Of a stretch of 27,915 nucleotides of DNA, positions 1,942-17,435 are shown piece after piece; the stretch's first letter is position 1, and each line of letters opens with the position of its first letter. The notes below the pieces were generated by a model, which was not told the origin of the DNA, did not search any database, and worked only from the letters and a program-made list of their open reading frames with translations. Source of the stretch: a virus; IMG/VR virus record IMGVR_UViG_3300042475_001103, positions 1 through 27,915 of that record; one strand, written 5' to 3'. Both the position numbers and the translations under genes were made by a program.

Positions 1942-1944
1942 GAG

Positions 1945-2953: not shown

Positions 2954-2965
2954 GACTATCTCCTA

Positions 2966-3936: not shown

Positions 3937-3969
3937 GAAGTTCCTCATCTGAGATAACGCCGAGCGACA

Positions 3970-3982
3970 GTCAAGACTTGAC
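3970..3982. other. Short perfect palindrome GTCAAG-A-CTTGAC
   Basis: Six-base arms around a single central base, in the non-coding region between the divergent start of the tail-tube unit (3936) and the first plus-strand cassette. It could be an operator, but no second copy was found, so it may be chance. Confidence 0.25.
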
Positions 3983-4095
3983 GGTCACACGGACACCTAC
4001 GGCGACGAGCGCACACTTGTTGAGCGAATCGTAGCAGGCGTGATGCTGTCGAGATCGTAGGTTGGGACTGTTTCCTGCGTGATTCTAGGTACGAT

Positions 4096-4175
4096 AAGTG
4101 CTGGTCAGAGACATATTTTGAGAAATATCGTGCATATGTCGCATCTTGTACAAGTACGTGTATATGATCTCTTCT
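4096..4175 (+). promoter_or_regulatory. Repeated promoter element, copy 1
   Basis: One of three copies of a conserved upstream region (others at 15364 and 17357). In order: AAGTGCTGGTCAGAG (4096-4110), inverted repeat GACATAT (4110-4116) and ATATGTC (4134-4140), palindrome CTTGTACAAG (4145-4154), -10-like TATGAT (4163-4168), then 7 bases to the ATG at 4176. No Shine-Dalgarno precedes the ATG, so transcription starting at or next to the A would give a leaderless message. The -35 position lacks TTGACA; the TTGTACAA palindrome begins exactly 17 bases before the -10 in all copies and probably binds a regulator. Confidence 0.75.
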
Positions 4176-4325
4176 ATGAACAACACCACAATTACAAAGA
4201 CAGAAGTCCTATCCAAGAAGATCAGTCTTCTCAACGATCTGTTCGACAACGGGCGTATCACTCTGAGTGAACTTGAGAGTCTTGTTCAAGACGCAATCGA
4301 AACATTCAACGGAGAGAACTCATGA
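4176..4325 (+). CDS. Small helical protein, first gene of plus-strand cassette 1
   Basis: 49 residues, beginning MNNTTITKTEVLSKK and continuing with a likely helix-turn-helix-sized pair of helices (ISLLNDLFDNGRITLSELES, then LVQDAIETFNG). The start is fixed by the promoter element ending 7 bases upstream and by the MNNT start shared with the first genes of the other two cassettes. It overlaps the next gene by ATGA. No family is recognised. The helical pattern could suit a small DNA-binding or adaptor protein, but that is a guess. Confidence 0.65.
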   Translation: MNNTTITKTEVLSKKISLLNDLFDNGRITLSELESLVQDAIETFNGENS

Positions 4326-4615
4326 GCACTTCATCATTCATCAACGCTGAAGAGTTGCGAGTATCAAAGCAACTACAACAGAAGAACAAGAACTCAAAAT
4401 ACCTTAGCGAAACGGGTCAAGAGTGCGCTCTTTGTTGCAAGGGAATGGGGCAACTGACAGAGGGCATGAACGTGTGGTACATCAACTTGACAACTGACGA
4501 CATGATCGCCCCAATCGAATCGAATATCGAACTCGGCGACAATGATCAGGGTTGGTTTGCTCTTGGCTCAGAGTGTGCAAAGCGTGTACCACTAACTCAC
4601 CGTATGAAGTTCTAA
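4322..4615 (+). CDS. Small Cys-containing phage protein, possible zinc site
   Basis: 97 residues. It starts in an ATGA overlap with a GGAGAG ribosome binding site inside the previous gene. Cys35, Cys38 and Cys39 (CALCC) and Cys85 (GSECAKRV) are spaced like a treble-clef or short zinc ribbon. The pattern CxLC..., then QGWFALGSECAKRV resembles small zinc-binding proteins common in actinobacteriophages, from recall. The N-terminal 30 residues are polar and helical. No function can be assigned. Confidence 0.75.
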   Translation: MSTSSFINAEELRVSKQLQQKNKNSKYLSETGQECALCCKGMGQLTEGMNVWYINLTTDDMIAPIESNIELGDNDQGWFALGSECAKRVPLTHRMKF

Positions 4616-4645
4616 CAACAACAAACACAAACAGGAGAAACCATC

Positions 4646-4864
4646 ATGAACACGAACGCACACTTGATCACTCACAACGGCGAAAGCCGAGGCAAGTTGT
4701 ACTACACAACTCTCAACACTTACGAGATGAAGTTTGTCTTGGGCAACTTTCAACTCGACGCAGACGGTGTGACGATCATTGCTCGCAACATCGGCGGTCA
4801 TAATCGATTCAAGTTCATCACAGTCGATCAGATCATCGACTTCGAGCCTGATCAAGCGAAGTGA
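4646..4864 (+). CDS. Small hypothetical protein, cassette 1
   Basis: 72 residues with a strong AGGAGA ribosome binding site 7 bases before the ATG, preceded by an unstructured CA-rich leader (aacaacaacaaacacaaac). The sequence is beta-rich (GKLYYTTLNTYEMKFVLGNF, ARNIGGHNRFKFITVDQII) and ends FEPDQAK. It resembles a short SH3-like or PH-like fold. No family is recognised. It is followed by a possible separate promoter for the next gene. Confidence 0.7.
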   Translation: MNTNAHLITHNGESRGKLYYTTLNTYEMKFVLGNFQLDADGVTIIARNIGGHNRFKFITVDQIIDFEPDQAK

Positions 4865-4880
4865 CTATCGCTCTCACAGA

Positions 4881-4912
4881 TTGACAACAACTGCACTACA
4901 CCGATCTAGTAC
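4881..4912 (+). promoter_or_regulatory. Possible sigma70-like promoter inside cassette 1
   Basis: A perfect TTGACA (4881-4886) is followed 18 bases later by TCTAGT (4905-4910), or 20 bases later by TAGTAC (4907-4912). It sits in the 78-base gap before the 4943 gene and would give a short leader containing AGGAGA. The -35 is convincing; the -10 is weak. Confidence 0.4.
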
Positions 4913-4942
4913 ACTCAACACAAACAGAACAGGAGAACAGCA

Positions 4943-5659
4943 ATGCAACAGTCACCCCATATCCATCACTTCGTCATCTCGTTCGACGCTCGCTCTTTCG
5001 AGTGGGAATGGAACACCGACGCAGAAGAACAGTTCTTCACAGAAGGCACAGTCGCCAACGTGAAGTACGAAGACGACATCATGTGGACTTCGGCGTATCT
5101 TGGTGCGTCGTACGTCGAGAACGAGACAGCGTTATCGGATTCAGTAACGCACGCAGTCAAAGTCTTGAACGATCTGATCACGAAGAAAGCAAGCACACGA
5201 GACTCGATCATTCTGAACTCGATCGAAGAGAACGCTGATGCTCTTGCTGACGCTCTCGTGTCTCATCGAGATTGGTTCGACGAAGACGAGGACTCAGACA
5301 TCGAGTCAATCAAAGTCATCGACGAGGCTCTGTCAGCACTTCAGCACGTATACGACCGATTCTTACCTGAAAGCGAACCACTCATGAAAGAGATTCAACC
5401 TGAGCGCACTCTGCAAGCAGGCTCAGTGCTCACGAACGGTGCGACAGTCGTTGTATGCACGAAGACTCGTGACGCAGTTCCTAGTGACTCGTACGCAACG
5501 TATATCGCAGTCTGCGTTCGAGACGGTGAGAACTTCCACGACTACGCCGTGTGGACTGTCATCGATCGACCTGAAGGTTTCGTTGCTGAACACGGCGACT
5601 ATCGACACACGCTCACAGAGGCGATTGGTTGCTACGAGAATCGACGAGGTGTGCTGTGA
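4943..5659 (+). CDS. Acidic hypothetical protein, cassette 1
   Basis: 238 residues with AGGAGA ahead of the ATG. Three parts can be seen: an N-terminal beta-rich segment (residues 1-60, HHFVISFDARSFEWEWNTD), an acidic helical middle (about 60-155, with DEDEDSDIESIKVIDEAL), and a C-terminal domain (about 155-238, TLQAGSVLTNGATVVVCTKT, then NFHDYAVWTVIDR, YRHTLTEAIGCYENRRG). The C-terminal pattern, beta strands then a YAVW strand and a helix ending in an Arg-rich tip, resembles a small accessory domain seen in actinophage proteins, from recall only. It overlaps the next gene by GTGA. No function is assigned. Confidence 0.75.
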   Translation: MQQSPHIHHFVISFDARSFEWEWNTDAEEQFFTEGTVANVKYEDDIMWTSAYLGASYVENETALSDSVTHAVKVLNDLITKKASTRDSIILNSIEENADALADALVSHRDWFDEDEDSDIESIKVIDEALSALQHVYDRFLPESEPLMKEIQPERTLQAGSVLTNGATVVVCTKTRDAVPSDSYATYIAVCVRDGENFHDYAVWTVIDRPEGFVAEHGDYRHTLTEAIGCYENRRGVL

Positions 5660-5877
5660 CTCACAAGCAGACGATCGTCAAAAGACAGACGCTTAGGCGT
5701 GAACCTCGCATCGGTAGGTGGCTTGACTACATATGGTGGCTCAACTTCTTCTCGTTCGGTGTCAGCATCGCTATATCTGATGTCACTCGAATCACTCTGA
5801 TACCTGCGTTCATCTCGATCACAACAGTCGGCGCACTGCAACTGTTCTCAATGAAACACGACGGGGCAGACTCATGA
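5656..5877 (+). CDS. Small membrane protein, cassette 1
   Basis: 73 residues from a GTG that overlaps the previous stop (GTGA). A basic N-terminus (KQTIVKRQTLRREPRIGR) is followed by two hydrophobic stretches (YIWWLNFFSFGVSIAI and ITLIPAFISITTVGALQLF), probably a two-segment membrane hairpin. It ends with a short acidic tail and overlaps the next gene by ATGA. It could be a holin-like or superinfection-type membrane protein, but nothing specific supports either role. Confidence 0.7.
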   Translation: MTHKQTIVKRQTLRREPRIGRWLDYIWWLNFFSFGVSIAISDVTRITLIPAFISITTVGALQLFSMKHDGADS

Positions 5878-6197
5878 TCAGATACAACGTCATCACTCGC
5901 ACGCTTGACAATGTTGACCGACGATTCGTCGGTGTTGATTACTTCAACCCTGACAACTCGACTGAAGTCTTCACTGCTCTCGTCTCATTGAATGACGATG
6001 ATTGGCAACTCGAAACAGAAGATACGTATCCTGAATGGTTTGCGTTCGATCAAGAGTATGTCGTGTTCTCTTGTGCGTCTCTCGACGAGTTAGTGAACAT
6101 GATCTTGAAAGAAGGTGAGTTCGGTGACATGACTCTGCTCGCAATCGATCAAGACGATGAAGACGTACTCGCCACTGTTCAAGACTTAGCGTGGTAG
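5874..6197 (+). CDS. Acidic hypothetical protein, last gene of cassette 1
   Basis: 107 residues starting in an ATGA overlap. It is strongly acidic with a beta-rich N-terminal half (MIRYNVITRTLDNVDRRFVGVDYF) and an alternating aromatic and acidic C-terminal half (DTYPEWFAFDQEYVVFSCAS, DEDVLATVQDLAW). No signal peptide, membrane segment or family motif is seen. It is tightly coupled to the preceding membrane protein. An anti-restriction or DNA-mimic role is conceivable from the charge, but this is speculation. Confidence 0.65.
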   Translation: MIRYNVITRTLDNVDRRFVGVDYFNPDNSTEVFTALVSLNDDDWQLETEDTYPEWFAFDQEYVVFSCASLDELVNMILKEGEFGDMTLLAIDQDDEDVLATVQDLAW

Positions 6198-6202
6198 TGC
6201 GA

Positions 6203-6239
6203 TGACACACGATCGTCATAATCCTGTAAGATGTAATTC
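6203..6239 (+). promoter_or_regulatory. Possible leaderless promoter for the lipoprotein gene
   Basis: TAAGAT (6227-6232) preceded by TG (extended -10, TGTAAGAT) lies 7 bases before the ATG at 6240, and no Shine-Dalgarno is present. TGACAC at 6203-6208 is a poor -35 match. The geometry matches the leaderless starts elsewhere in the window. Confidence 0.45.
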
Positions 6240-6776
6240 ATGATTCGACGAACGAGCCTTGCGCTCGCAACGTTGTCGCTGATCGCTTCGTGCGGTGGCG
6301 GTGTGAACGACACAACGTCAGTACCCCCACAGACGACCCCTATTGTGTTATCGCCCGTCACTGCACAAGCACCAGCAACAACAACAACATCAACAACGAC
6401 AAGCACAACAACGACTGAAGTACCTTTACAGTCAGACCCGCTTGATTACATTGACGAGCAACGACAACTACACGGTCAATGCGGTGAATGGCACGATCTT
6501 GCACTTGAAGTCGGTTGGCAAGAAGAACAATGGCCCACGTTGAGTGCTGTCTTGTTTCGAGAAAGCCGTTGCACGTTCGACGCATGGAACGGTTCAGACG
6601 CAGGCTTGAGCCAGATCAATCAGATTCACACTTCGTGGTTGAACGAGATGGGTCTTTCACACCCTGACGATATGTTCGACCCTCGCAAGAATCTTTGGTT
6701 CGCTCACAAGTTGTTCTCTTCACGTGAAGAGAAGGGTCAATGCGGTTGGCAACCTTGGTCAAAGCCTTGCAACTAA
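6240..6776 (+). CDS. Lipoprotein with lytic transglycosylase-like domain
   Basis: 178 residues. A lipoprotein signal ends in LIASC (lipid-attached Cys18), followed by a Thr/Ser-rich linker (about 44-62) and a C-terminal lysozyme-like SLT domain (about 70-178). In the SLT domain FRESR carries the likely catalytic Glu108 and GLSQIN (122-127) matches the usual GLMQIN motif. Four Cys residues (81, 111, 168, 177) could form disulfides outside the cell. The family cleaves peptidoglycan between MurNAc and GlcNAc. Anchored outside the membrane, it could help lysis or remodel the wall of infected cells. It is on the plus strand and overlaps the convergent Com-like gene by 4 bases. A host-derived moron gene is possible. 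Confidence 0.85.
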   Translation: MIRRTSLALATLSLIASCGGGVNDTTSVPPQTTPIVLSPVTAQAPATTTTSTTTSTTTTEVPLQSDPLDYIDEQRQLHGQCGEWHDLALEVGWQEEQWPTLSAVLFRESRCTFDAWNGSDAGLSQINQIHTSWLNEMGLSHPDDMFDPRKNLWFAHKLFSSREEKGQCGWQPWSKPCN

Positions 6777-6940
6777 CTTGCTGACTCGTTGATCTCTTTG
6801 CATCGAGTGCAACGTATGCGCCAAGGTGAAGTGATCATCTCAGCAAGTAACTTGCCGCAGTTGCCACAGCGCACGCTTGTGCGTGTCGCACGTTCAACTT
6901 CGGGTACAAGCCTTGTCTCTGCATAAGGGTCAACAGTCAT
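6773..6940 (-). CDS. Com-like zinc finger protein
   Basis: 55 residues, with ATG at 6940 overlapping the stop of the upstream gene (TGATG). The core is RCGNCGKLLAEM followed by RIRCTRCKEIN: two CxxC pairs about 16 residues apart, with KLL after the first and N after the second. This matches the Com family, whose phage Mu member binds RNA and activates translation of the mom DNA modification gene. The N-terminus (MTVDPYAETRLVPEVERATR) is an extra basic/acidic arm. It lies at the end of the neck gene run, and no mom homolog is visible in the window, so its target is unknown. Its last 4 bases overlap the stop of the plus-strand lipoprotein gene. Confidence 0.8.
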   Translation of the reverse strand: MTVDPYAETRLVPEVERATRTSVRCGNCGKLLAEMITSPWRIRCTRCKEINESAS

Positions 6941-7335
6941 CAGTACGCTCGTGTGACATTGAAGTTCTGTACGAAGATCACTCGATCTTGACTGTCACGT
7001 TCAAGAACAAACGGCGACTGAATCGCAGTCACACGGTTGTATCTCGTACCCGATAACGACATATTGACGATGCCTTCAAGAGTTGCCCAACAAAGATTGA
7101 TCAGCGACTCTGCTGACGCATACAACACTGCACGCACAGCGATCTGCACACTCGGATTCTGCAACACAGGCAGACCGCTACCCATCGTGTTGTCAGGTGC
7201 TGACCCGCCGTACTCGTACAGAACAACACAAGTATCAGGTGAGTCAGGCATACGACCGAGAAAGAGATTCGTACCGAGCGTCAAAGACGCTTGCTGTGAA
7301 TCAAGATAAGTTGCGATATCAACAAGCGTTGTCAT
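6940..7335 (-). CDS. Tail terminator / minor capsid protein
   Basis: 131 residues from the ATG at 7335, which overlaps the upstream stop (TGATG); the TTG just before it is not needed. The pattern of an N-terminal helix (LVDIATYLDSQQ), then LFLGRMPDSPDTCVVLYEYGG, then NPSVQIAVRA with a helix, and finally an IQSPFVLERDSQDRVIFVQNFNV strand pair matches the tail terminator/minor capsid family (lambda gpU-like fold). It closes the tail tube at the head side. It follows three other neck genes in canonical order. Confidence 0.8.
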   Translation of the reverse strand: MTTLVDIATYLDSQQASLTLGTNLFLGRMPDSPDTCVVLYEYGGSAPDNTMGSGLPVLQNPSVQIAVRAVLYASAESLINLCWATLEGIVNMSLSGTRYNRVTAIQSPFVLERDSQDRVIFVQNFNVTRAY

Positions 7336-7814
7336 CAACTACGACCTGTGCCGAGTTGATAATGCTTACGAACATACGCTGTCAAAGTCTCAGTGAAGTT
7401 CGCTGTGTACTGCTTGAAAGGTCGCTCAAGATACTTCGGGCCTCGACCCGTAGCAGGGTCAATACCCGGCCCTGTTCCTTGTCGCCCGCCGACTTTACTT
7501 TTGTTCGGTGGTTTCGGCGGGTGATAGAAGTCAAGACGTTCGTGTTGCACAAGAGCGTACGGTGTTGCACTGTTGCCGTATCCGACTTCAACCTTGTACG
7601 TCGTTCCTATGTTGCTCTCTTCAACACTTCGACTCGTGCGAAGTATTCCCTCGTCGACGGGTACCAGTTGTTCGCTTGCGTTGCTGATGTCTTCTGCCAT
7701 GTTCTTGAGACCTGCACGCAAAGCAAGAGACACACCTTCAGCGTCAGCAATCAGAGCACGATGAATTTCACTCATGTTCTGAGTCTTCACTTTGATCGTG
7801 ACAGGCTTTGCCAT
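7335..7814 (-). CDS. HK97 gp10-like neck/tail completion protein
   Basis: 159 residues, starting in a TGATG overlap. Key features are an N-terminal helix (AGLKNMAEDISNASEQL), the segment VPVDEGILRTS followed by a VEVGYG strand, a YALVQHERLDFYH motif, a Gly-rich loop and the C-terminal GPKYLERPFKQY helix. These are the hallmarks of HK97 gp10-like/minor capsid proteins that join the head connector to the tail. The start has overlapping translation coupling with the upstream gene and no strong ribosome binding site. Confidence 0.85.
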   Translation of the reverse strand: MAKPVTIKVKTQNMSEIHRALIADAEGVSLALRAGLKNMAEDISNASEQLVPVDEGILRTSRSVEESNIGTTYKVEVGYGNSATPYALVQHERLDFYHPPKPPNKSKVGGRQGTGPGIDPATGRGPKYLERPFKQYTANFTETLTAYVRKHYQLGTGRS

Positions 7815-8164
7815 CAGTTGCGTCTCGGTTCACCAAGTGCAAGCACGACGCATTGTTGACCGAACTCGTCTGATCGAATATCAGTTTCGACGATAACTCT
7901 TGAAACACCGCTGACAGTGAGAAGATCATCAGTCGATGGTGAATAAGTCGTTGAGGGAATGTATGCGATGTAATCGATGACTGCTTGATCTGTTGATGCG
8001 TTGCGCTTGCTCGCAGATATCTTCTGCACGTAAGCCTTGTACGTTGTGCCACTGCCTGCGTTCAAGACTTCGCCATACGAGTTGATCGAAGATCGAGGCG
8101 TGACTGTCACAGTCTGCGTTGCAAGTTGCAACAGTTCAGTCATGAAGTCGTTACTCGCTGTCAT
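7814..8164 (-). CDS. Head-tail stopper / head closure protein
   Basis: 116 residues in a neck gene run, overlapping the upstream gene by ATGA. It is beta-rich: QTVTVTPRSSINSYGEVLNA, then TYKAYVQKISASKR, then STDDLLTVSGVSRVIVETD, which fits the head closure (SPP1 gp16-like) fold. An N-terminal helix (FMTELLQLA) precedes the barrel. It would plug the connector after packaging. The assignment relies on gene order and secondary structure pattern more than on a motif. Confidence 0.75.
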   Translation of the reverse strand: MTASNDFMTELLQLATQTVTVTPRSSINSYGEVLNAGSGTTYKAYVQKISASKRNASTDQAVIDYIAYIPSTTYSPSTDDLLTVSGVSRVIVETDIRSDEFGQQCVVLALGEPRRN

Positions 8165-8652
8165 TGATCAGCACCGCCACCAAATATCTGTACACCCGTG
8201 ATCGTGTTATTCGCACCACCATCGTCGACGTTCTGAAACTGACCTGATGCGAACCAACCTCTGAACACGTCACTGTTGTCTTGATCAATCTCTTTATCAC
8301 TGATCGACAAACCACCAGCGTACGCAATCGGCACGAAGTTCTGAACTTTCGCCATCGCATTGAACTGTGATGCTTGCGCCAAATACCCTTGTGCTTTCTG
8401 CGACAACTTCACGTTCAAGTCACCGATCTGCTTATCAGCAAGACGAGCCAACTTTGACGCAATAGTTAGACAGCATCGGTACGCCGCATCGTATAGAGCG
8501 TTCGTACCCGTTGAAGTACCTGATGCTTCAGTGTTCACCCACGATATTTCTTCATTCGATAACAGTTGATCAGTTGTGTCAGTGTCACCAATAAGGAATC
8601 TGATTGCGTCTTTAGCGTTAGCAGACGGGTCGCCACCATAAGTCCATGTCAT
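8161..8652 (-). CDS. Head-tail connector (adaptor) protein
   Basis: 163 residues. The start WTYGGDPSANAKDAIRFLIG followed by DTDTTDQLLSNEEI is the characteristic opening of phage head-tail connector proteins (helical bundle, HK97 gp6/SPP1 gp15-like). A long helix follows (ALYDAAYRCCLTIASKLARLA), then LNVKLSQKAQGYLAQAS. The C-terminal third is Gly/Asp-rich and flexible. It binds under the portal as a ring. It leads the four neck genes 8652-6940. Confidence 0.85.
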   Translation of the reverse strand: MTWTYGGDPSANAKDAIRFLIGDTDTTDQLLSNEEISWVNTEASGTSTGTNALYDAAYRCCLTIASKLARLADKQIGDLNVKLSQKAQGYLAQASQFNAMAKVQNFVPIAYAGGLSISDKEIDQDNSDVFRGWFASGQFQNVDDGGANNTITGVQIFGGGADQ

Positions 8653-8663
8653 TGTCGCTCATC

Positions 8664-8975
8664 TCACTTGATCGTCGGAAGAGTGAACACAGAACCAATC
8701 GGTGTGCCAGAAATTAAGTCAACGTATATCCCATCAGGGCAAGCGATACCGTTTGGCCCAAACCAATGAGTCTCGTGATCTCCATTCGCTGGTTTAATGA
8801 GAGCAACGATCGGGTCAGTGTTTGCGTCGCCGTTGTGAAGGTGCAAGTGAACTTGACCGTGAGAAGAATCACCAATAGTAATCCCCATCAGAACAACCGC
8901 GCTTGCTGTCTGTACACCTGAAGTCGCTCGAATTTTTGTTGCTGTCACTGCGCTTGTTTGTGTTGTGTTTCTCAT
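8664..8975 (-). CDS. Small beta-rich structural protein, unknown
   Basis: 103 residues with GGAG six bases ahead of the ATG. The protein is Thr/Ala/Gly-rich and beta-rich, with HGQVHLHLHNGDA in the middle and a C-terminus ending in GIYVDLISGTPIGSVFTLPTIK. The alternating HVHLHLHNG pattern looks like a strand of a jelly-roll or decoration protein. It sits between the capsid block and the connector gene, just downstream of a strong hairpin, so it may be virion-associated. No family is recognised. Confidence 0.65.
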   Translation of the reverse strand: MRNTTQTSAVTATKIRATSGVQTASAVVLMGITIGDSSHGQVHLHLHNGDANTDPIVALIKPANGDHETHWFGPNGIACPDGIYVDLISGTPIGSVFTLPTIK

Positions 8976-8996
8976 ATGTGACTCCGTGAATGACTA

Positions 8997-9034
8997 AGGC
9001 CGAGACTGATGCGTTCTAGCACCAGTCTCGGCCT
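8997..9034 (-). terminator. Strong hairpin downstream of capsid genes
   Basis: AGGCCGAGACTG (8997-9008) pairs perfectly with CAGTCTCGGCCT (9023-9034), a 12-bp stem with a 14-base loop that can add a TGC/GCA pairing. No U-tract follows on either strand, as is frequent for actinobacterial terminators. It lies in the 80-base gap after the capsid/decoration genes, so it may end or attenuate the capsid message, or protect its 3' end. Confidence 0.7.
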
Positions 9035-9055
9035 GAGTGCCGTAGTTGAGTTGTA

Positions 9056-9481
9056 TTACTTGCGGTAGAAAGTAACGCCTGTCGCTGAGTCGTAACGAAC
9101 CAACCAAGTACCTGACGTTGCCGCAGGCACAGTTGCAAGTCCAACGAGAGTGACACCTGTTGCACCAGCAACAAGAGTGATCGTTGCGGCTGATGCGGCA
9201 AGGTTCACGATCGTGAACTCTGTGCAGTCACCGACTTGTTGACCAGCGAGCAGAGCAATGATGTCAGCACCGATCGCAGTTGTTACGTTGCGAGCGGTCG
9301 TTGGTGTTGAAGTGACAAGAGTGTTCGTAACGATATGAGCCGCAGTAGCAACCATCGACGCACCATCAGCGATAGTTGCCGCAGTGCGCTTGACGCTTGC
9401 AGTGCCACGAAGACGTGTCGGGCCGCTTACTTCAAGAGCACCGACGAGTGCAGTACCACGAGTGATTCGATTGAAAGCCAT
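9056..9481 (-). CDS. Capsid-associated decoration or head fibre-like protein
   Basis: 141 residues, with AGGAG six bases before the ATG. The N-terminus (MAFNRITRGTALVGALEVSG) is short, followed by an Ala/Thr-rich stretch and a C-terminal beta domain (GDCTEFTIVNLAASAATITL, then GTWLVRYDSATGVTFYRK). The last part resembles the small knob domain found on phage head fibres and decoration proteins, where a GTW...Y...VTFYR ending is common. The gene is directly downstream of the major capsid gene and upstream of the hairpin. Confidence 0.65.
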   Translation of the reverse strand: MAFNRITRGTALVGALEVSGPTRLRGTASVKRTAATIADGASMVATAAHIVTNTLVTSTPTTARNVTTAIGADIIALLAGQQVGDCTEFTIVNLAASAATITLVAGATGVTLVGLATVPAATSGTWLVRYDSATGVTFYRK

Positions 9482-9494
9482 GTGAGTCTCCTAA

Positions 9495-10445
9495 TTACGC
9501 AGTGACGCAGTTGCTGAAGAAGTAACCGAGCGGTGTACCGACAGCCTTGAAGTCCCAAGCGGATTCAATTTCAAGACGATCTGCACGCAAGTGATCCATA
9601 CGGAAACGTGAGACAGCAGTCGAAGTACCGAGACCGCCACCAACACCGTTCCACACGAAGTTGTAACCTGCTGATGCGCTCATGATTCCAGCGGCTGGTG
9701 CGACGTAACACAAGAGAGCGTCTTTGTCGCCCATCTGTGCGTAAGTTGCTGATGCGCCTTCTTTTGCTGAGTTGAATACGCCCTTCATGACCATGACACG
9801 GGGAACGTCGAGCACTTTGCCGATGAGTTCAGGTGTGATGCTGTCTGCTGACGTGTACTTGTAACGATCAACGAAGTCGCTGTGGTTACGAAGAGTCTTG
9901 TAGGTTGCGTACGACAACACGAGAGTGTTGGGCAAGTAGCCAGTGTTCGTCAAGATGGTGTTCACACCAGTCTGAATGTCACCGATCGGGTCAGAACCTG
10001 ATGCGTCCCACAAAGTCGAAGGCGTAGCGTCAGTTCCCCAAACAGAAGTCGTGAAGAACTTGCTAGCCCAATCACGCTCTTGACGAATCATCATCTGATG
10101 AGCAAGGAACTTTGTTGCGTCCATGTCGGGGTCAAGTGGCGAATCGCTGTTCGCACGAACCTGATCGCCAATGTCTTTGTGCAAAGCCCAAACACTTGAC
10201 GAGTAACTTGAGGTCGACAGCGAGTAGCCGCTTCCTGCTGATTCAGTTCCGTCAGCACGATACTGTGCCTGATCACGGTAGAAGTCTGCTTGCGAGTACG
10301 TGAAGTACAAGTCAGATTGCTTGTTCACCGAAACAGTCGGGAACACTTTTGATGCGACAAAGTTGTCGACTTCGTTCATGTAAGCGACGCTCAAGTTGGT
10401 GAGCACCGCATCGATATGAACTTGGTTCTGAGTGGGCTGTGCCAT
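9495..10445 (-). CDS. Major capsid protein
   Basis: 316 residues of HK97-fold type. Supporting segments are the N-terminal arm (HIDAVLTNLSVAYMNE, FVASKVFPTVSVNKQSDLYF), a loop region with KDIGDQVRANSDSPLDPD, the spine helix (KFLAHQMMIRQERDWASKFF), the PNTLVLSYATYKTLRNHSDF segment, and the C-terminal RADRLEIESAWDFKAVG strand. This pattern matches the encapsulin-like/Mu-type major capsid proteins that occur with Mu-like portals. It follows scaffold and decoration genes in the usual order. The ribosome binding site is weak (AAGAAGAA). Confidence 0.92.
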   Translation of the reverse strand: MAQPTQNQVHIDAVLTNLSVAYMNEVDNFVASKVFPTVSVNKQSDLYFTYSQADFYRDQAQYRADGTESAGSGYSLSTSSYSSSVWALHKDIGDQVRANSDSPLDPDMDATKFLAHQMMIRQERDWASKFFTTSVWGTDATPSTLWDASGSDPIGDIQTGVNTILTNTGYLPNTLVLSYATYKTLRNHSDFVDRYKYTSADSITPELIGKVLDVPRVMVMKGVFNSAKEGASATYAQMGDKDALLCYVAPAAGIMSASAGYNFVWNGVGGGLGTSTAVSRFRMDHLRADRLEIESAWDFKAVGTPLGYFFSNCVTA

Positions 10446-10465
10446 GACTGGTTCTTCTTTCTAGA

Positions 10466-10852: not shown

Positions 10853-10854
10853 GT

Positions 10855-11508: not shown

Positions 11509-11603
11509 CGCTGTGAATCGTAGACACCTGCGTCGATTATCCGTTGTAACTCTGCAAAGAACTTCCAATGATCTTTCGTTCTTGATCAGTACAGTGATTG
11601 ATC
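11509..11603. promoter_or_regulatory. Divergent promoter region with two -10-like boxes
   Basis: Between divergent genes. On the minus strand TACGAT (11522-11517) is 8 bases before the scaffold ATG; on the plus strand TACAGT (11590-11595) is 8 bases before the lipoprotein ATG. Neither gene has a Shine-Dalgarno. No clear -35 boxes are seen. Confidence 0.4.
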
Positions 11604-11816
11604 ATGCTTGCTGAACGTACTGCTCGAACATTGTTTGCGTGCGTTGCGTTCATCTCTTTGAGTGCTATCGCATCGTCGTGTGGATACGACGGGAAATATC
11701 GATACACGTGTCAAGACCCAGCGAATTGGGAACTGGCAGAGTGCAAGCCACCAATCTGTGAACCAACAGGCAACTGTTCTGAGACTCTCGTATGGGGTAA
11801 TTCTAATGGCTCGTAA
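11604..11816 (+). CDS. Small lipoprotein, possible lysis-related
   Basis: 70 residues from the ATG at 11604. A signal with basic start (MLAERTART), a hydrophobic core and a lipobox ending SAIASSC (modified Cys probably residue 26) is followed by a short exported part with five further Cys residues: CGYDGKYRY, CQDPANWELAECKPPICEP, then GNCSETLVWG. The Cys/Pro-rich tail could be disulfide-bonded. Similar short lipoproteins with a CQDPANW motif occur in aquatic phages, from memory. It overlaps the membrane gene downstream by 11 bases, so the two are probably coexpressed. A spanin role is unlikely if the host has one membrane. Confidence 0.75.
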   Translation: MLAERTARTLFACVAFISLSAIASSCGYDGKYRYTCQDPANWELAECKPPICEPTGNCSETLVWGNSNGS

Positions 11817-12102
11817 GCGTTACGCACCCGAAGAGATACACGCACGACTCGTTCTTGCTGTCGGTCTTGCTTTGTGTTTCACGTTCGTGATGATCGTCGT
11901 TGCAGTCTTGTGGGCATTGGTATTCGTTACGCAACCGATGACTCAATCACCCAACGACAAAGCGTTCCTCGATGGTGTGTTGATTCCGATCACGCTCTTC
12001 TTGAGCGGGGCATTGAGCGGGGTTCTAGCAAGCAACGGACTCAAGTCGAAACCACAACAGCAACGTCGAGACATGATCTCAGACGAAGAGTTGTTTCGCT
12101 GA
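11806..12102 (+). CDS. Two-segment membrane protein, holin-like
   Basis: 98 residues from the ATG at 11806, inside the end of the lipoprotein gene. A basic N-terminus (MARKRYAPEEIHAR) is followed by a long hydrophobic helix (LVLAVGLALCFTFVMIVVAV and on to WALVFV), a loop (TQPMTQSPNDKAFLDG) and a second helix (VLIPITLFLSGALSGVLA). The C-terminus is polar and charged. The size and topology match class II holins, but the same could be said for many phage membrane proteins. Pairing with the lipoprotein makes a small exported-protein unit. Confidence 0.7.
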   Translation: MARKRYAPEEIHARLVLAVGLALCFTFVMIVVAVLWALVFVTQPMTQSPNDKAFLDGVLIPITLFLSGALSGVLASNGLKSKPQQQRRDMISDEELFR

Positions 12103-12381
12103 TTAGTTCTCTACGCTTTCGAGCGGTAGCAGTGTCGAGACTTTGAGACGATCGATGCGCTTAATCATTCCATTCGGTATCGCAATCACGTGATCAATAT
12201 GATCTGATTCGTCCATGATGACTGACTGCGAGATCACAACATGATTCGCTTTCACGCCCGCTATGAGATATCCGATTGACGTGACAATGCAAGGTTCGCT
12301 GTCTAGATCGTCTCGTGTAGTCCACGTCTCTGAGACAGCATGAGCGTCGTGCCATGTGACTTGAATCAGTTGATGCTTCAT
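12103..12381 (-). CDS. Small conserved phage protein, unknown
   Basis: 92 residues from the ATG at 12381, which overlaps the metallophosphoesterase stop (ATGA). It opens MKHQLIQVTWHDAHAVSETW and has a beta-rich middle (PCIVTSIGYLIAGVKANHVVISQSV) ending in the segment HVIAIPNGMIKRIDRL. The W.DA...W opening and IPNGMI.RI.L ending recur in small phage and actinobacterial proteins, from memory, without known role. Translation is probably coupled to the phosphoesterase. Confidence 0.75.
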   Translation of the reverse strand: MKHQLIQVTWHDAHAVSETWTTRDDLDSEPCIVTSIGYLIAGVKANHVVISQSVIMDESDHIDHVIAIPNGMIKRIDRLKVSTLLPLESVEN

Positions 12382-13529
12382 GCTTTGTATTCCTTGCCTC
12401 TGTACATCGCCCACCCGTCGTGAATCGCTATCTGTTCATAGCAGAAGTTCCCCGACTCAGGGTCGTACGGTATGACTGCGAGACCTTGTTGCCAATCTTC
12501 GTAGCGCACAAGCGGTCTGCCGTTCAAGTCTGTACCGCCACGTGTGCTCGGCACTGCACCATCGACTCGACACAAGCAACCCGGACTCGCCGCAAGAACT
12601 GTACGAGGCCCATCATGATCTTCACGAGTACGTTCTGCCCATTCACGACGATGAATATGACCGTACACGACTGACGACTTCTCTTGACCAAGATACTTGT
12701 GCGCTGTTGAACCACCGCTTGCAACTCGATCACCGTGAATGACACGCAGACGTTCAGTAATCCAAACAGACGACGCTGGATAACCCGGTCTGTATTCGAT
12801 ATCAACTTCGTCGAGTCGACACAGATACGGCACGCTCATGACAGGCCATGAGTCAGGCAGATTCCCTCGCTTCAATCCGAAAGCGGCGGCGGCGTTCTGC
12901 AACAAGAACTTCGGCAATCTTTCTTCGTGATTACCTGCAAGCCAAATGATCTTTGCTCGTGGTGCGGCGGCACGTATCTCTGCGGCGAGTCGTGTTGCTC
13001 GATCGATCGTCGCTTGTGTTGTCTGTTGATATGCGCTTGTGACGATGTACTTGCCGAGTTCAGCGAAGTCAAGGTTGTCACCAACGAGAACAACGATGTC
13101 AGGGTCAACATCAGCAACGATTGACAACGCAACAGAGATCGCTCGTTCGTCGTGTATCGCTTCAAGTGAACCATCAACAGCAGAGAAGTACCCGCACTGA
13201 ATATCGGGCAACACAACAGCAACAGGCCAACCTGATCGTGTTTTCGTTGCTTTCGATGCAGTGATCTTGACAGGCGGGCCTTGTTGAATGACAGGCCATT
13301 CAGGGCCTGTCTCCCACTTTGGTGAGAACTGAATACCTGTGAGATCGTGTACTGATGCTTCACCTGTGTCGCTGTCTTTCGTGACTGCTTGATACAGCGA
13401 CACTCTTTTGATAGCACCGACTTCATCGATGTCAATGCCGTTGCGTTCGAGTAGTTCAGCGATTCGACCAAGCGACTGTTTCTTCGTCGTTGATGCGTTC
13501 TCTCGTTCGATGTCGTCTCTAAGACTCAC
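12378..13529 (-). CDS. Calcineurin-like metallophosphoesterase
   Basis: 383 residues from a GTG at 13529 with GAGGGG nine bases upstream. The metal-site motifs are present in order: PDIQ (Asp109, in place of the usual DxH), GDNLD (about 150-154), GNHEE (199-203), IHGD (264-267) and GHIH (290-293). The first motif has Gln where His is usual, a variation also seen in Mre11-related phage enzymes. The N-terminal about 100 residues are a helical region with an HTH-like start (SLGRIAELLERNGIDIDEVGAIK). It follows an HTH-like gene with an 11-base overlap. A phosphodiesterase or nuclease acting on DNA or RNA is likely; the substrate is not visible. Confidence 0.85.
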   Translation of the reverse strand: MSLRDDIERENASTTKKQSLGRIAELLERNGIDIDEVGAIKRVSLYQAVTKDSDTGEASVHDLTGIQFSPKWETGPEWPVIQQGPPVKITASKATKTRSGWPVAVVLPDIQCGYFSAVDGSLEAIHDERAISVALSIVADVDPDIVVLVGDNLDFAELGKYIVTSAYQQTTQATIDRATRLAAEIRAAAPRAKIIWLAGNHEERLPKFLLQNAAAAFGLKRGNLPDSWPVMSVPYLCRLDEVDIEYRPGYPASSVWITERLRVIHGDRVASGGSTAHKYLGQEKSSVVYGHIHRREWAERTREDHDGPRTVLAASPGCLCRVDGAVPSTRGGTDLNGRPLVRYEDWQQGLAVIPYDPESGNFCYEQIAIHDGWAMYRGKEYKA

Positions 13530-13767
13530 AAGAACAATCCCCTCGTCGATGTCGCTTGAGCATCTCGATCGTGACTGTGATGTCTCTGTCAGCAAGTGCA
13601 AGCGAGATTGATCTGTTAGTTATTGAACGATCTTTCAATGCCACGTTCAAGTCTTCGAGATCAACGCCGAAGAGTTTGCCGAGAGCGAGTTGAACACCGC
13701 AGATACGTCGACCGTGTGATCTGTGATAATTGCTTATTGAACTAGACAGACTTTCTTTGTCAGGCAT
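13519..13767 (-). CDS. Small HTH-like DNA-binding protein
   Basis: 82 residues. The first 18 residues are Ser-rich; then CGVQLALGKLFGVDLEDLNVAL, and DRSITNRSISLALADRDITV with TIEMLKRHRRGDCSCES. Two helical stretches followed by RHRRGxCxC form a pattern I recall from actinophage helix-turn-helix proteins that often precede a phosphoesterase. The terminal basic patch and Cys pair could contact DNA or a metal. It overlaps the phosphoesterase by 11 bases, so the two are probably one functional pair. Function is unproven; a small-terminase-like or regulatory role is also possible. Confidence 0.7.
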   Translation of the reverse strand: MPDKESLSSSISNYHRSHGRRICGVQLALGKLFGVDLEDLNVALKDRSITNRSISLALADRDITVTIEMLKRHRRGDCSCES

Positions 13768-13824
13768 ATCAGTCCGATCGTTACAAGATCAGACCAGCCT
13801 AACAAACTGTGGACAACTTGTGGG

Positions 13825-13998
13825 TCAATCTGTGTTGTCTTCGTCTCTTGTCAACAGAACACCGATGAAGTGCAGAGCAAGACTTGCCCCGAAAGTCCAT
13901 GCGGCTTTCGAGAGTGTTGCGCCACTGAGAGTGATCAGCACTAGAGCGACTCCGCAGATAGTCCATATTTGTGCGTGTAGTTCTTTGATGACTTTCAT
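13825..13998 (-). CDS. Small two-helix membrane protein (holin-like)
   Basis: 57 residues. ATG at 13998 has AAGGAG seven bases upstream and overlaps the stop of the Thr-rich protein (TGATG). A short polar start (MKVIKELHAQ) is followed by hydrophobic IWTICGVALVLITLSGATL and, after KAAW, TFGASLALHFIGVLL, ending in acidic TRDEDNTD. Two membrane helices in under 60 residues suit a small holin or a partner of the exported protein translated just before it. Confidence 0.75.
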   Translation of the reverse strand: MKVIKELHAQIWTICGVALVLITLSGATLSKAAWTFGASLALHFIGVLLTRDEDNTD

Positions 13999-15209
13999 CA
14001 GATTCTCCTTCGAGTTGTTGGTACGGGTGCAGGCAATAAGAAAGACACAGCAGTCACAGCGACGACAGCACGTCGTGCGCCTACTGAGATCGTCGAGCCA
14101 TCAGGAACGTACGTATCGAACTGTCCACTGAATACGTTGATCGTCTCCTCGAACTGTTGCTTCACTTCAGCGGGTGCGTCTGAGAGTGCTTCTGCGATCT
14201 GTTCTGCCTGCTCATCGGTCAGTTCTGTGTCTGCGATGCTTGCGATCAGTTCTTCTGTCTGCGTGTCTGTTAGGTCTGCAAGATCATCTGTCGTCAACTC
14301 TTGAAGATAAGTGACGATCTCTTCTGCGTCTGCTTCTTCAGGCAGGCTTTCAACGATCGTTGATTCAGTGACAGGCGCACTCTCTGTTGGGGCAGTAGTA
14401 GGCACTGTCGTCGTTCCATTTGTGGAATCTGGTGTCGTTGTGCTCGTCGAAGTTGATGACGTGCTTGTCGTCGTCGGTACTGTCGTCGAAGTTGAAGACG
14501 TTGTTGATGTGGTCTGTGAGATCGGTGATGGTTGCGTGCCATTCGAGAGCGTTGTTGTAGGCAATTCGACTTGGGTCGTCGTCGTAGATACTTCTGCTGG
14601 TAGCGATGTCGTCACCTCTGTCGTCGTTGTTTGTATAACTGTCGTTGTAGTGGCCGGCTCTGTTGTCGTCGTTGTTGTAGCAGGTTCAGTTGTCGTCGTC
14701 GTTGTAGTTGTCGTACTCGAAGTCGTTGTCGTTGTAGCAGGCTCTGTTGTTGTTGTTGAAGTTGTCGTCGTTGTTTCAGGTTCTGTCGTCGTGCTGACTT
14801 CAGTTGTCGTCGTTGAATCACTTTGTGATTCATTGAACGTCAACTCGTACTGAACATTCCATACAACACCATCTCGCCATACATCAGGTTCGTAACAACA
14901 CGTCGACGCTCGAAGACGATACGAACCAGCAGACAGCATGAGATCAATCTTCGACTGTAAGCCCACGTAGTCGTCGTTCGTGACGATCAGTTCGTTGTCA
15001 CTGTTGTACAACCACAGTTGCGGGTCAGACGGAAGATCGCCTGATTGATATGTCTGTGCCAAAAACTGTGTTGACTCTGCGAACTCGAAGTTGAAGTCTG
15101 TCGGTGCAGTGATCACAAGTCTTGAGTCTGCGTGTGCTGGTTGAACCCATGCAAGCAAGAGACCTGCATACAGCAGAACTCGACTCAGTGTTGTAAAGAC
15201 TCTTCTCAT
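13998..15209 (-). CDS. Exported Thr-rich stalk protein with C-terminal membrane anchor
   Basis: 403 residues from the ATG at 15209 (an in-frame GTG at 15239 is less likely). A signal peptide (MRRVFTTLSRVLLYAGLLLA..., cleavage near AHADS) leads into a beta-sandwich-like domain (about 30-125: LVITAPTDFNFEF, YNSDNELIVTNDDYVG, GSYRLRASTCC), then about 150 residues of Thr/Ser repeats with TTTTEP units. An acidic helical region follows (TTDDLADLTDTQTEELIAS, LTDEQAEQIAEAL), then NVFSGQFDTYVPDGS and a hydrophobic anchor (VVAVTAVSFLLPAPV) ending in RRR. The layout is that of an actinobacterial cell-surface stalk protein rather than a virion protein; a host-derived moron altering the cell surface is the best guess. 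Confidence 0.8.
   Translation of the reverse strand: MRRVFTTLSRVLLYAGLLLAWVQPAHADSRLVITAPTDFNFEFAESTQFLAQTYQSGDLPSDPQLWLYNSDNELIVTNDDYVGLQSKIDLMLSAGSYRLRASTCCYEPDVWRDGVVWNVQYELTFNESQSDSTTTTEVSTTTEPETTTTTSTTTTEPATTTTTSSTTTTTTTTTEPATTTTTTEPATTTTVIQTTTTEVTTSLPAEVSTTTTQVELPTTTLSNGTQPSPISQTTSTTSSTSTTVPTTTSTSSTSTSTTTPDSTNGTTTVPTTAPTESAPVTESTIVESLPEEADAEEIVTYLQELTTDDLADLTDTQTEELIASIADTELTDEQAEQIAEALSDAPAEVKQQFEETINVFSGQFDTYVPDGSTISVGARRAVVAVTAVSFLLPAPVPTTRRRI
14370..14818 (-). repeat. Low-complexity Thr/Ser codon repeat
   Basis: Read on the minus strand this is an almost unbroken run of Thr codons (ACA, ACG, ACT, ACC mixed) broken by EPA, EVS and similar spacers, coding for the stalk of the exported protein. 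Mixed codon choice shows selection at protein level rather than simple slippage, but length variation between relatives is expected. Confidence 0.85.
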
Positions 15210-15260
15210 GATCTCTCGCAGTGAGGCGACAGAGCGCACGAAGGCATCACAAGGATATCA

Positions 15261-15284
15261 CTGTGATCTGCTCTGTGATCTGCT
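15261..15284. repeat. Tandem 12-base repeat, two units
   Basis: CTGTGATCTGCT occurs twice without a gap, followed by CACTGTG, in the non-coding region between the divergent stalk protein gene and the repeated promoter element copy 2. It may bind a regulator or be a small duplication. Confidence 0.5.
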
Positions 15285-15363
15285 CACTGTGCGTGCGTCG
15301 ATGCTGTGCGTGCTGTCAATCTGACGCTGTGTTAGCCTGAGGCCGGTAGGTTTTGTGGCGCAA

Positions 15364-15443
15364 AAGTGCTGGTCAGAGACATATTTTGCAGAATCTTCTC
15401 GAATATGTCGCACGTTGTACAAGCACGTGTATATGCTGAAGAT
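15364..15443 (+). promoter_or_regulatory. Repeated promoter element, copy 2
   Basis: AAGTGCTGGTCAGAG (15364-15378), inverted repeat GACATAT (15378-15384) and ATATGTC (15403-15409), palindrome TTGTACAA (15415-15422), -10-like TATGCT (15432-15437), 6 bases, ATG at 15444. Spacings match copies 1 and 3 within one base. There is no Shine-Dalgarno. Confidence 0.75.
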
Positions 15444-15797
15444 ATGAACAACACACTCAACTACCACAGCAACTACAACTCAGCAGTCTTCGCACCCGCA
15501 CAGACGGGCGTGCTCACCGCTCTCGTCCCGCAAAAGCGTGGTGATGACTACTCAATCCGCATCAACGCAACAAACGTCGAGACGCTCGCTGACGGGTCGA
15601 TCTCATACACAGAAGTCGTACTCGTCGAAGTTTCACGTGGCGAATACGAACCTCGCTTGTCGATCAGCAAAGTAGTCAAGTCTGAACTCGTGACTGCTTA
15701 CAACTGGAAGTTCGCTTCTGTTCTTGCAGACGCTGATCTCTCGATCAACTTCGTTCGTCGTCAAGATTCGACATCGACGATCAGCGAGTGCAACTGA
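15444..15797 (+). CDS. Hypothetical protein, first gene of cassette 2
   Basis: 117 residues. The start is set by the promoter element and by MNNT, shared with the lead genes of the other cassettes; in-frame codons further upstream overlap the promoter and are rejected. After a flexible N-terminus (NYHSNYNSAVFAPAQTG) it is beta-rich (DYSIRINATNVETLADGS, ISYTEVVLVEVSRGEYEPRL) with a helical and polar C-terminus. No family is recognised. Only the first few residues, not the body, resemble the other lead proteins. Confidence 0.7.
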   Translation: MNNTLNYHSNYNSAVFAPAQTGVLTALVPQKRGDDYSIRINATNVETLADGSISYTEVVLVEVSRGEYEPRLSISKVVKSELVTAYNWKFASVLADADLSINFVRRQDSTSTISECN

Positions 15798-15806
15798 TCA
15801 TGAACT

Positions 15807-15833
15807 CCACAACCAACACAACAACACAGGAGA
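15807..15833 (+). repeat. CA-rich leader with ribosome binding site, copy A
   Basis: CCACAACCAACACAACAACA (15807-15826) is identical to 16043-16062; each copy is followed by AGGAGA (here 15828-15833) and a start codon. It probably gives an unstructured leader that helps ribosome loading. An ATG at 15800 reads through it in frame as MNSTTNTTTQ. Confidence 0.7.
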
Positions 15834-15838
15834 CAGCC

Positions 15839-16039
15839 GTGAAATACGCAATCAAACTCACAAGCACACGAACAAGGAAGATCAAGTTCCTTCACTCGCA
15901 TCGATCAGGGTTGCGAGCACGCATCACCACCACGTCAGAGTTCGCCAACGCTCGCAAGTTTGCAACTGAGGCTGACGCACAAGAGTTCATCAACAAGAAC
16001 GCATACAACTTCGGATACAAGTTCGAGGTCGCATCGTGA
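15839..16039 (+). CDS. Small basic hypothetical protein, cassette 2
   Basis: 66 residues from a GTG with AGGAGA five bases upstream. An in-frame ATG at 15800 would prepend 13 residues encoded by the CA-rich leader. It is basic at the start (VKYAIKLTSTRTRKIKFLHS), then shows a strand and a helix (RARITTTSEFANARKF, ATEADAQEFINKNAYNF) ending YKFEVAS. The beta-alpha pattern with A..FATEADAQEFI resembles small domains where a helix packs on a short sheet, as in many phage hypotheticals. It overlaps a possible GTG start of the next reading frame (GTGA). Confidence 0.65.
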   Translation: MKYAIKLTSTRTRKIKFLHSHRSGLRARITTTSEFANARKFATEADAQEFINKNAYNFGYKFEVAS

Positions 16040-16042
16040 ACA

Positions 16043-16071
16043 CCACAACCAACACAACAACAAACAGGAGA
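16043..16071 (+). repeat. CA-rich leader with ribosome binding site, copy B
   Basis: A 20-base identical copy of 15807-15826 (16043-16062), then AGGAGA at 16066-16071 and ATG at 16078. Similar but not identical CA-rich leaders precede the 4646 and 4943 genes. Confidence 0.7.
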
Positions 16072-16077
16072 AACATC

Positions 16078-16290
16078 ATGAGCAAGCGTTACTACAAAGA
16101 GTTCATCGATTGGAGAGAAGTCACTGAGTGGGCTGTCGTCGATAGCAAGCGTCGAGTCACCGACTTCAACGTTTACTGTGAAGACGAGAGTCATGCAGAC
16201 GCACTCGTCAAAGAATTGAACCGTCGTGGCTACGAGATCGGTGAGTTCCACGCAATCATGATCGCTAACGACTTGAAGGTGAAGTCATGA
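16078..16290 (+). CDS. Small hypothetical protein, cassette 2
   Basis: 70 residues from an ATG with AGGAGA at the right distance; a GTG at 16036 in frame would add the leader-encoded Asn/Thr stretch and is less likely. It is a small alpha/beta protein: YKEFIDWREVTEWAVVDSK, DFNVYCEDESHADALVKEL and GYEIGEFHAIMI. The middle (VYCEDESHADALVKELNRRG) has the same layout as the next gene (CVNKEHALRVAQALNK), which suggests the two are distant paralogs. No function is assigned. Confidence 0.7.
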   Translation: MSKRYYKEFIDWREVTEWAVVDSKRRVTDFNVYCEDESHADALVKELNRRGYEIGEFHAIMIANDLKVKS

Positions 16291-16556
16291 GCGGCGATCG
16301 CTACTTCGCAGAGAGCGTCGAGCACTTCAACGAACGCACTGGCGAATGGTCAGAGCAATGGCTCGTCAGCGACGATCAACGCTTCGGCATCAGTGGTCGC
16401 ACGTTCGAGTGGTTGTTCGAGATCAAGTGCGTCAACAAAGAGCACGCACTCAGAGTCGCTCAAGCGTTGAACAAAGACTTCAACGGAGAACACGTCTCAC
16501 AAGAAGACGCTCGTGAACTTGCAAGCGATCTTCGACCGAGCAAGTTGTTCAAGTGA
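16287..16556 (+). CDS. Small hypothetical protein, likely paralog of its upstream neighbour
   Basis: 89 residues starting in an ATGA overlap. RYFAESVEHFNERTGEWSEQ and EWLFEIKCVNKEHALRVAQ repeat the strand-strand-helix arrangement of the preceding gene: a WxxxW-like pair, then C, then a charged turn and an Ala/Leu helix. The C-terminus is helical and charged (SQEDARELASDLRPSKLFK). No family is recognised. It is coupled on both sides by overlaps. Confidence 0.7.
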   Translation: MSGDRYFAESVEHFNERTGEWSEQWLVSDDQRFGISGRTFEWLFEIKCVNKEHALRVAQALNKDFNGEHVSQEDARELASDLRPSKLFK

Positions 16557-16750
16557 TGTCTCGTTACTACTACGACATCGATGTCGTTCTTGAATCTGTA
16601 CGCAACGCAGTTGGCTTGACTGAGTTCGCTATCAGTGACGAAGACTGGCAGACGTGCGCTGAGATACACGCTGAACTTGCTGAACTGTTCTCAACACTTG
16701 AACGTCGACGAGTTGTGCGAATGAACAACGTGTATTCTGATCAGTCATGA
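16556..16750 (+). CDS. Small hypothetical protein, cassette 2
   Basis: 64 residues from the ATG at 16556 in a TGATG overlap with the preceding gene. The sequence MSRYYYDIDVVLESVRNAVG followed by EFAISDEDWQTCAEIHAEL and STLERRRVVRMNNVYSD suggests one strand and two or three helices. Nothing identifies a function. It overlaps the next gene by ATGA. Confidence 0.65.
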   Translation: MSRYYYDIDVVLESVRNAVGLTEFAISDEDWQTCAEIHAELAELFSTLERRRVVRMNNVYSDQS

Positions 16751-17235
16751 GACCTGCGAACTTTGTTGATTGGGCAGAAGGCGAAGACTGTGCTGATGCG
16801 TTCAAGAACGCTCACGTCTGTGCTCGTCTGATGCACAGAGTCGGCGGCTTTGACGCACCGATCTTGCGTAAGCGATCATTCATCGAACTTGAAGTACCGT
16901 CTGACATCGTTGACGAACGGGGACTCGAACGACTCTGCTTGACTGTGCTCGCATACGTTCAGCGTGAACGACTCGAAGACGGGTCAGTCGTTCTCGATCT
17001 TGAAGGTCTTGCTGAACTTGTCGAAGACGACGACGAGAATCTTCGTTGCTCTGTGAATCGAGAGTCTGAATGGTTCTCTCTGATCGACTTTGCGTATCTG
17101 ATGCACGTCATCGGTGTCGATGCTGTCGATTCTTTGTTGCGTCAGTACGTTGACATCAACGGGCCTTGTCTTGCTGTTCGAGCGAGCGACTCGAAGTGGC
17201 TCTTCTTCGGTCTCGTCACGTCTCAGCACGACTGA
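16747..17235 (+). CDS. Acidic hypothetical protein, last gene of cassette 2
   Basis: 162 residues starting in an ATGA overlap. It is mixed alpha/beta and acidic: NFVDWAEGEDCADAFKNAHV, FIELEVPSDIVDERGLERLC, then VVLDLEGLAELVEDDDENLR and a C-terminal domain (FSLIDFAYLMHVIGVDAVDS, then PCLAVRASDSKWLFFGLV). There is no signal or membrane segment. No family is recognised. It ends just before the non-coding stretch leading to promoter copy 3, which in 17236-17350 is T- and GTCTG-rich with no gene. Confidence 0.7.
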   Translation: MRPANFVDWAEGEDCADAFKNAHVCARLMHRVGGFDAPILRKRSFIELEVPSDIVDERGLERLCLTVLAYVQRERLEDGSVVLDLEGLAELVEDDDENLRCSVNRESEWFSLIDFAYLMHVIGVDAVDSLLRQYVDINGPCLAVRASDSKWLFFGLVTSQHD

Positions 17236-17356
17236 TCTCAGATCGCTTTCAGTCGCACGAGGTTGCGTTCTGAGCGGTTCTGTCTGCTTATCTGAGTCTT
17301 TGTGTCGTCTGCTTTGTGCTGTTCGTCTGTGCTCGTTCTGTGTTGTCTGAGTACAT

Positions 17357-17435
17357 AAGTGCTGGTCACAGATATATTTGGTCGAATCTTCAGGATATGT
17401 CGTTGCTTGTACAACTGTGGGTATATGCTGAAGAC
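17357..17435 (+). promoter_or_regulatory. Repeated promoter element, copy 3
   Basis: AAGTGCTGGTCACAG (17357-17371), imperfect inverted repeat GATATAT (17371-17377) and ATATGTC (17395-17401), palindrome TTGTACAA (17407-17414), -10-like TATGCT (17424-17429), 6 bases, ATG at 17436. It is the most diverged copy, but the TTGTACAA, the right arm and the spacing are kept. Confidence 0.75.

Follow-up and report, generated by a model that had tools for sequence, protein, structure and literature searches.

Dispersed promoter-like elements head unrelated gene cassettes and a replication operon in an uncultured phage

At least six dispersed copies of one conserved element stand at operon fronts in an uncultured phage, three of them in the 27.9-kb virus contig analyzed here (the window, meaning that whole stretch of DNA). 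Judging by its sequence, each copy is likely an early promoter–operator module of the phage that is read by host RNA polymerase with the main sigma factor. The identification as a promoter is well supported, and the six copies probably constitute a real early regulon, i.e., a shared on-switch for scattered early non-structural genes that also marks the sites where blocks of genes are swapped.

A sequence-only reading had placed three copies in the window, each directly followed by an ATG (at 4176, 15444, and 17436). They are present at those positions. Aligned in pairs, they score 84.2, 81.5, and 59.0 bits, far above the 42.8 bits of the best self-match obtained when the window was shuffled 40 times with dinucleotides preserved. 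The proposed spacings are exact: 12 bases from the right arm of an inverted repeat to the TTGTACAA palindrome, 17 from TTGTACAA to TATG(A/C)T, and then 6–7 nt to the ATG. BLASTP similarity is absent among the three first proteins, in agreement with the proposal that the genes behind the copies are unrelated. The three units comprise the following features:

4096–4175, plus strand: element copy 1, type A, with upstream box, AT-rich block, ATATGTC, TTGTACAA, and −10 TATGAT; TCGCAT at the −35 place
4146–4153, plus strand: TTGTACAA palindrome of copy 1
4163–4168, plus strand: −10 TATGAT of copy 1, 7 nt before the ATG at 4176
4176–6776, plus strand: cassette 1, small genes of unknown function, the last (6240–6776) encoding a lipoprotein-like SLT transglycosylase
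15364–15443, plus strand: element copy 2, type A, −10 TATGCT, then the ATG at 15444
15415–15422, plus strand: TTGTACAA palindrome of copy 2
15444–17235, plus strand: cassette 2, six small genes, those tested lacking a PHROG match at E ≤ 0.001
17357–17435, plus strand: element copy 3, type A, −10 TATGCT, then the ATG at 17436
17407–17414, plus strand: TTGTACAA palindrome of copy 3
17436–18266, plus strand: cassette 3, a single gene of unknown function (PHROG 2433/15500)
18292–18313, plus strand: intrinsic-terminator-like hairpin (9 pairs, 7 of them G-C, and a T run) that closes the plus-strand block

Those first proteins of the cassettes that were tested against PHROG matched no family of known function, and no strong terminator was seen after cassette 1. 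Cassette 3, with its element, gene, and terminator, is flanked by 29-nt inverted repeats that are 90% complementary (17254–17282 and 18377–18405). Two plus-strand genes of the window, one at 11662–12102 and the WhiB gene at 27215–27613, have no element in front. Using BLASTN, copy 1 found zero matches in 50,697 phage records. One pattern match elsewhere (L004) is intergenic and lies in another phage, and a second (L006), which looks coding and has low GC, was taken as chance.

Two further contigs extend the window in both directions. G003 equals window positions 6502–27915 at 99.9% and continues rightward, G002 equals positions 1–4166 at 99.86% and continues leftward, and the two contigs share 130 bp (99.2% identity) where their free ends meet, giving a population genome of ~52.9 kb that is a composite of three contigs rather than one assembled molecule. 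This genome encodes a WhiB-like protein; the known distribution of WhiB points to actinobacteria, so the hosts are probably uncultured actinobacteria. A host search by capsid protein or WhiB among 84,980 genomes matched nothing. No tyrosine integrase or serine recombinase scored above the cut-off; the phage is therefore probably lytic, and a lysogeny repressor is unlikely. A protein resembling glucosyl-HMC glucosyltransferase (PHROG 842) adjoins a ParB-like protein (G002 1664–2668 and 2550–3188, both minus strand), which suggests hypermodified phage DNA. The claim of three copies holds for the window and undercounts the phage, which has three more, diverged and of a second type, on the minus strand outside it:

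G002 9788, minus strand: type B copy
G002 1534, minus strand: type B copy
G003 23436, minus strand: type B copy

The copy at G002 9788 stands at the head of an operon that includes genes for RecT, a replication initiator, RusA, and ParB. All six distinct copies share the upstream box (CATAAnnGCTGRTCAG.GACATATTTTG), the AT-rich block, and the TTGTACAA palindrome, and their alignment keeps GCTG.TcA, AT.TTtg (ATatTTtg), gAAT, TTGTAcAA, and the −10. Two traits first thought general belong to type A: the GACATAT..ATATGTC inverted repeat is found in the three window copies but is absent from type B, and the −35 is missing from type A, which reads TCGCAT, TCGCAC, or TCGTTG there, whereas type B has TTGACG/TTGCTA 18 bp before the −10 (TTGACG/TTGCTA-N18-TAnGAT).

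The sequence-only reading had named conservation at cassette fronts in relatives as one of its tests beforehand, and this was passed. Relatives were gathered as 57 loci found by capsid protein, and the longer records were compared to themselves. G004, G009, G010/G011, G015, G016, G019, and G021 each carry their own family of 2–7 dispersed, phage-specific copies at operon fronts, and some copies in G004 and G009 occupy the genome site of window copy 1. The proposal of a promoter-like element heading unrelated cassettes as a candidate regulon is supported, and it widens to six copies and to a replication/recombination operon. Elements share 62–78% identity within a phage and mostly 5–20% between phages, with the exception of the window phage compared to G004 (42–56%) and G009 (23–36%). 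This pattern indicates that the elements of each genome evolve in concert, whether or not a cognate regulator exists.

The most constant trait across these families is their geometry. Every copy of the window phage has TAnnnT 5–7 nt before its ATG, as do 29 of 34 elements from eight phage groups before ATG or GTG, compared to 2.2% of all ATGs. The five elements without a strict TAnnnT are all the G016 copies, which read TAATACT and count against the promoter–operator reading. At the other extreme, the G015 element (TTGACA-N17-TATGAT-N6-ATG) is an almost perfect sigma-A promoter. Mycobacterial leaderless genes have an RTG at +1 with the −10 directly 5′ of it (PMC4633059), and each copy is best read along the same lines, as a leaderless promoter for the host sigma-A (TAnnnT, 5–7 nt, ATG). 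Because the −10 adjoins the ATG as it does in those genes, the MNNT start of the proteins would reflect conserved first transcribed bases. Two findings count against this reading: type A copies have no −35, and three G004 copies are leadered, with a Shine–Dalgarno sequence. In G015, G016, G019, G021, G010, and at G002 9788, a Shine–Dalgarno sequence and a second ATG follow ~10–12 codons past the leaderless ATG, mostly in frame. At three G015 sites (15093+, 19606+, and 28908−), the leaderless start, as read in the sequence, opens an ORF of ~11–13 codons that stops before the next gene and may encode a leader peptide. The leaders of G004 (39139+, 32320+, and 18189−) contain CGTACGCAAGAGCGTACG, a hairpin-forming repeat before the Shine–Dalgarno sequence that differs by one base in one copy.

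Where strains have exchanged sequence, the boundary lies at the element. G002 and the window agree at 99.86% as far as the copy-1 −10, after which they carry different genes, and the loci L005, L007, and L010 match the window to position 4189, differ, and rejoin at 4616 at a AACAACAAACACAAACAGGAGAAAC linker. This ribosome-site linker stands between cassette genes at window positions 4614–4641 and 16047–16074 and in relatives at G008 11807 and G009 16163. At the copy-2 site, L011 carries a related element and gene (84% over 238 bp), and the gene behind the G002 1534 copy is 90% identical over 71 residues to a gene in the structural region of G009. The strain breakpoints at the element and the shared gene at differing sites indicate that units move between element-headed sites.

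The upstream box keeps a stepped distance from the −10. This distance is 70–71 bp in seven window-phage copies (one a strain variant of copy 1) and four G004 copies, i.e., 10 distinct copies from two phages; 60–61 bp in four copies, from G008, G009 (twice), and G021; and 80–81 bp in another four, from L060, L061, and G015 (twice). Since these distances step by ~10 bp, about one DNA turn, they suggest that whatever binds the box touches RNA polymerase from one face of the helix, with the reservation that the box in G009 and G015 was matched through weak similarity and that the helical series draws on few independent lineages. The G012 box, at 55 bp, is off the series, and the boxes in G013/L026 and at G009 4941 are inverted; both findings count against the promoter–operator reading. 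TGTACAA precedes the −10 by 16 nt in the window phage and by 23–24 nt in G004, while the position of the box is unchanged. Because the palindrome slides by 7–8 bp within the polymerase footprint, it looks more like a repressor operator. Two other origins of the box were rejected. A peptide coded on the opposite strand is contradicted by stop codons in several frames in relatives (read by eye), and a tRNA fragment by ARAGORN, which found none in 18 loci, 14 of them with the 16-mer CATAACCGCAGGTCAG, and by a T-arm-like sequence after just one of 122 listed exact matches of CATAACCGCAGGTCAG.

This 16-mer, which differs from the type B box at two positions and from the type A box at three, occurs in G021 (20300− and 46329−) and G012 (15221−), and its reach is wider. 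At least 122 exact places were found in viral contigs (including L126–L245), in about 61 unrelated contexts, compared to 6 for the reversed CATAACCGCAGGTCAG and 14 for CATAACCGCTGATCAG; CATAACCGCAGGTCAG is at least 20-fold above its reversed form. It also occurs, at positions worked out by hand, in the divergent gp12–gp13 intergenic region of Corynebacterium phage P1201 and near the right genome end of Mycobacterium phage Crossroads, outside annotated genes. One group of CATAACCGCAGGTCAG sites lies ~660 bp from contig ends, and P1201 has several CCTCTGACCTGC repeats at ~4754–6754, a region that matches the record at seven places. Among the at least 122 places, an extended −10 follows CATAACCGCAGGTCAG after 15–45 nt in 10 of 61 clusters, compared to a 1% background, whereas a leaderless start 40–90 nt downstream accompanies only 2 of the 122 listed, compared to 5.5%. 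It is a doubtful proposition, offered with much reserve, that the box is the local form of a pan-actinophage CATAACCGCAGGTCAG site, bound by a conserved, perhaps host-encoded protein that would aid polymerase at early promoters from one helix face.

In mechanistic terms, a promoter–operator module could be rationalized as follows. The −10 (TAnnnT), 5–7 nt before the ATG, would start a leaderless mRNA directly at this ATG, and the promoter and the translation start would then travel together. The upstream box, held rigidly at 70–71 bp from the −10, may act as an activating site that touches polymerase through a bound protein or the alpha-CTD, and TTGTACAA, placed in the polymerase footprint, may be an operator that serves shut-off more likely than activation. 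Type B, with its −35, fronts the replication/recombination region, and type A, which lacks it and probably leans more on the upstream site, fronts extra cassettes among structural genes. Common modules would allow cassettes to be exchanged with immediate expression.

The copies could instead be plain duplicates: strong but ordinary host promoters, each with an AT-rich, UP-like segment, that recombination copied along with moron cassettes and gene conversion evened out, with no dedicated regulator. Homogenization within each phage, breakpoints at both the element and the downstream ribosome-site linker, and a G015 family that is essentially a consensus sigma-A promoter all fit such duplication. 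We nonetheless hold it to be rather unlikely, since blocks outside the promoter core (GCTG.TcA, ATatTTtg, and TTGTAcAA) stay constant amid varying neighboring bases, and G004 has these blocks too, at a constant box spacing. A regulon timed by a phage-encoded DNA-binding protein, which would bind the box or the palindrome at all six units, is in our view unlikely as well. Its best candidate is a 74-aa HTH protein (G002 3185–3409), confined among 20 records to the four phages whose element families have a CATAA box (the window phage, G004, G008, and G009), in which its recognition region is nearly invariant. These four phages are, however, each other's nearest relatives, which leaves the protein a candidate binder only, and G021 has an exact box without it. 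A MarR-like wHTH protein was rejected as the cognate regulator, its HTH showing almost no variation in phages whose elements are unrelated, and WhiB occurs in most relatives whatever the element type and was not found in G021.

The halt of strain exchange at the element might also mean that the elements serve mainly for recombination or cassette exchange and not as promoters. This is very improbable: the promoter geometry and start codon are what remain most constant across unrelated element sequences, one copy fronts a replication operon, and exchange at repeats is expected of any shared sequence. The lack of a −35 in type A could point to a promoter served by a single-subunit RNA polymerase or a sigma factor that the phage itself encodes, but relatives show sigma-A geometry, and no sigma-70 region 2 gene was detected in ten records in which the controls were positive, making this reading extremely improbable. 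If a promoter–operator module read by host polymerase is right, an uncultured phage group runs its early genes by lineage-specific, multi-copy promoter modules into which new gene cassettes plug, the promoter bringing a leaderless translation start of its own. The per-phage families would then be ready-made test sets for cognate regulators. The wider CATAACCGCAGGTCAG motif ties the elements to cultured mycobacterial and corynebacterial phages, which are open to experiment, and its reading as a pan-actinophage site, if true, would mean that actinobacterial phages have a general, as yet undescribed way of controlling their early genes.

Several known systems share part of this design. Like the moron cassettes of tailed phages, the units here lie between structural genes on the opposite strand, have their own promoter, and are swapped between strains; cassette 3 has all of the promoter (17357), gene (17436–18266), and terminator (18292–18313) amid structural genes. 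Unlike morons, several units draw their promoters from one family, which also heads the phage's replication operon. The stoperator system of cluster A phages uses multiple 13-bp GGTGGMTGTCAAG sites; this 13-mer has one match with two mismatches, compared to 0.91 expected. Leaderless sigma-A promoters of actinobacteria, described in mycobacteria (PMC4633059), likewise place the −10 directly 5′ of an RTG without a Shine–Dalgarno sequence. They differ from the elements described here, which are a repeated conserved module with an upstream box and a palindrome, and to which some relatives add a Shine–Dalgarno sequence and a second ATG, mostly in frame.

The earlier statement that no described element has this arrangement was too strong, as the ESAS of cluster K mycobacteriophages are comparable (PMC3203893, PMC11373665). 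These are repeated intergenic SigA-like promoters with inverted repeats before unrelated genes, with a consensus that differs by subcluster and an unknown regulator; they measure 46–47 bp, with 15–17-bp imperfect inverted repeats, usually a 13-bp SAS (GGGATAGGAGCCC) no more than a few bp from a start codon, and a putative SigA promoter with 17–18 bp spacing (PMC3203893, PMC11373665). Within the window, GGGATAGGAGCCC has no match with two or fewer mismatches, and 17-bp inverted repeats of the ESAS type are absent, the only pair being the 7-bp GACATAT/ATATGTC of type A. Both promoter boxes (N18) are found in the three type B copies, and the −10 only in the three type A copies. Unlike ESAS, the elements are ~85 bp long, have a leaderless ATG, an upstream box whose distance is fixed, and a spacer with an 8-bp palindrome, and also occur among structural genes on the opposite strand. 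Like ESAS, they are intergenic copies before unrelated non-structural genes, with a putative SigA promoter that has both boxes in type B, an adjacent symmetric sequence, and a subgroup-specific consensus. ESAS is, on these sequence features, the nearest described system, and the elements reported here appear to be ESAS-like in their working without being members.
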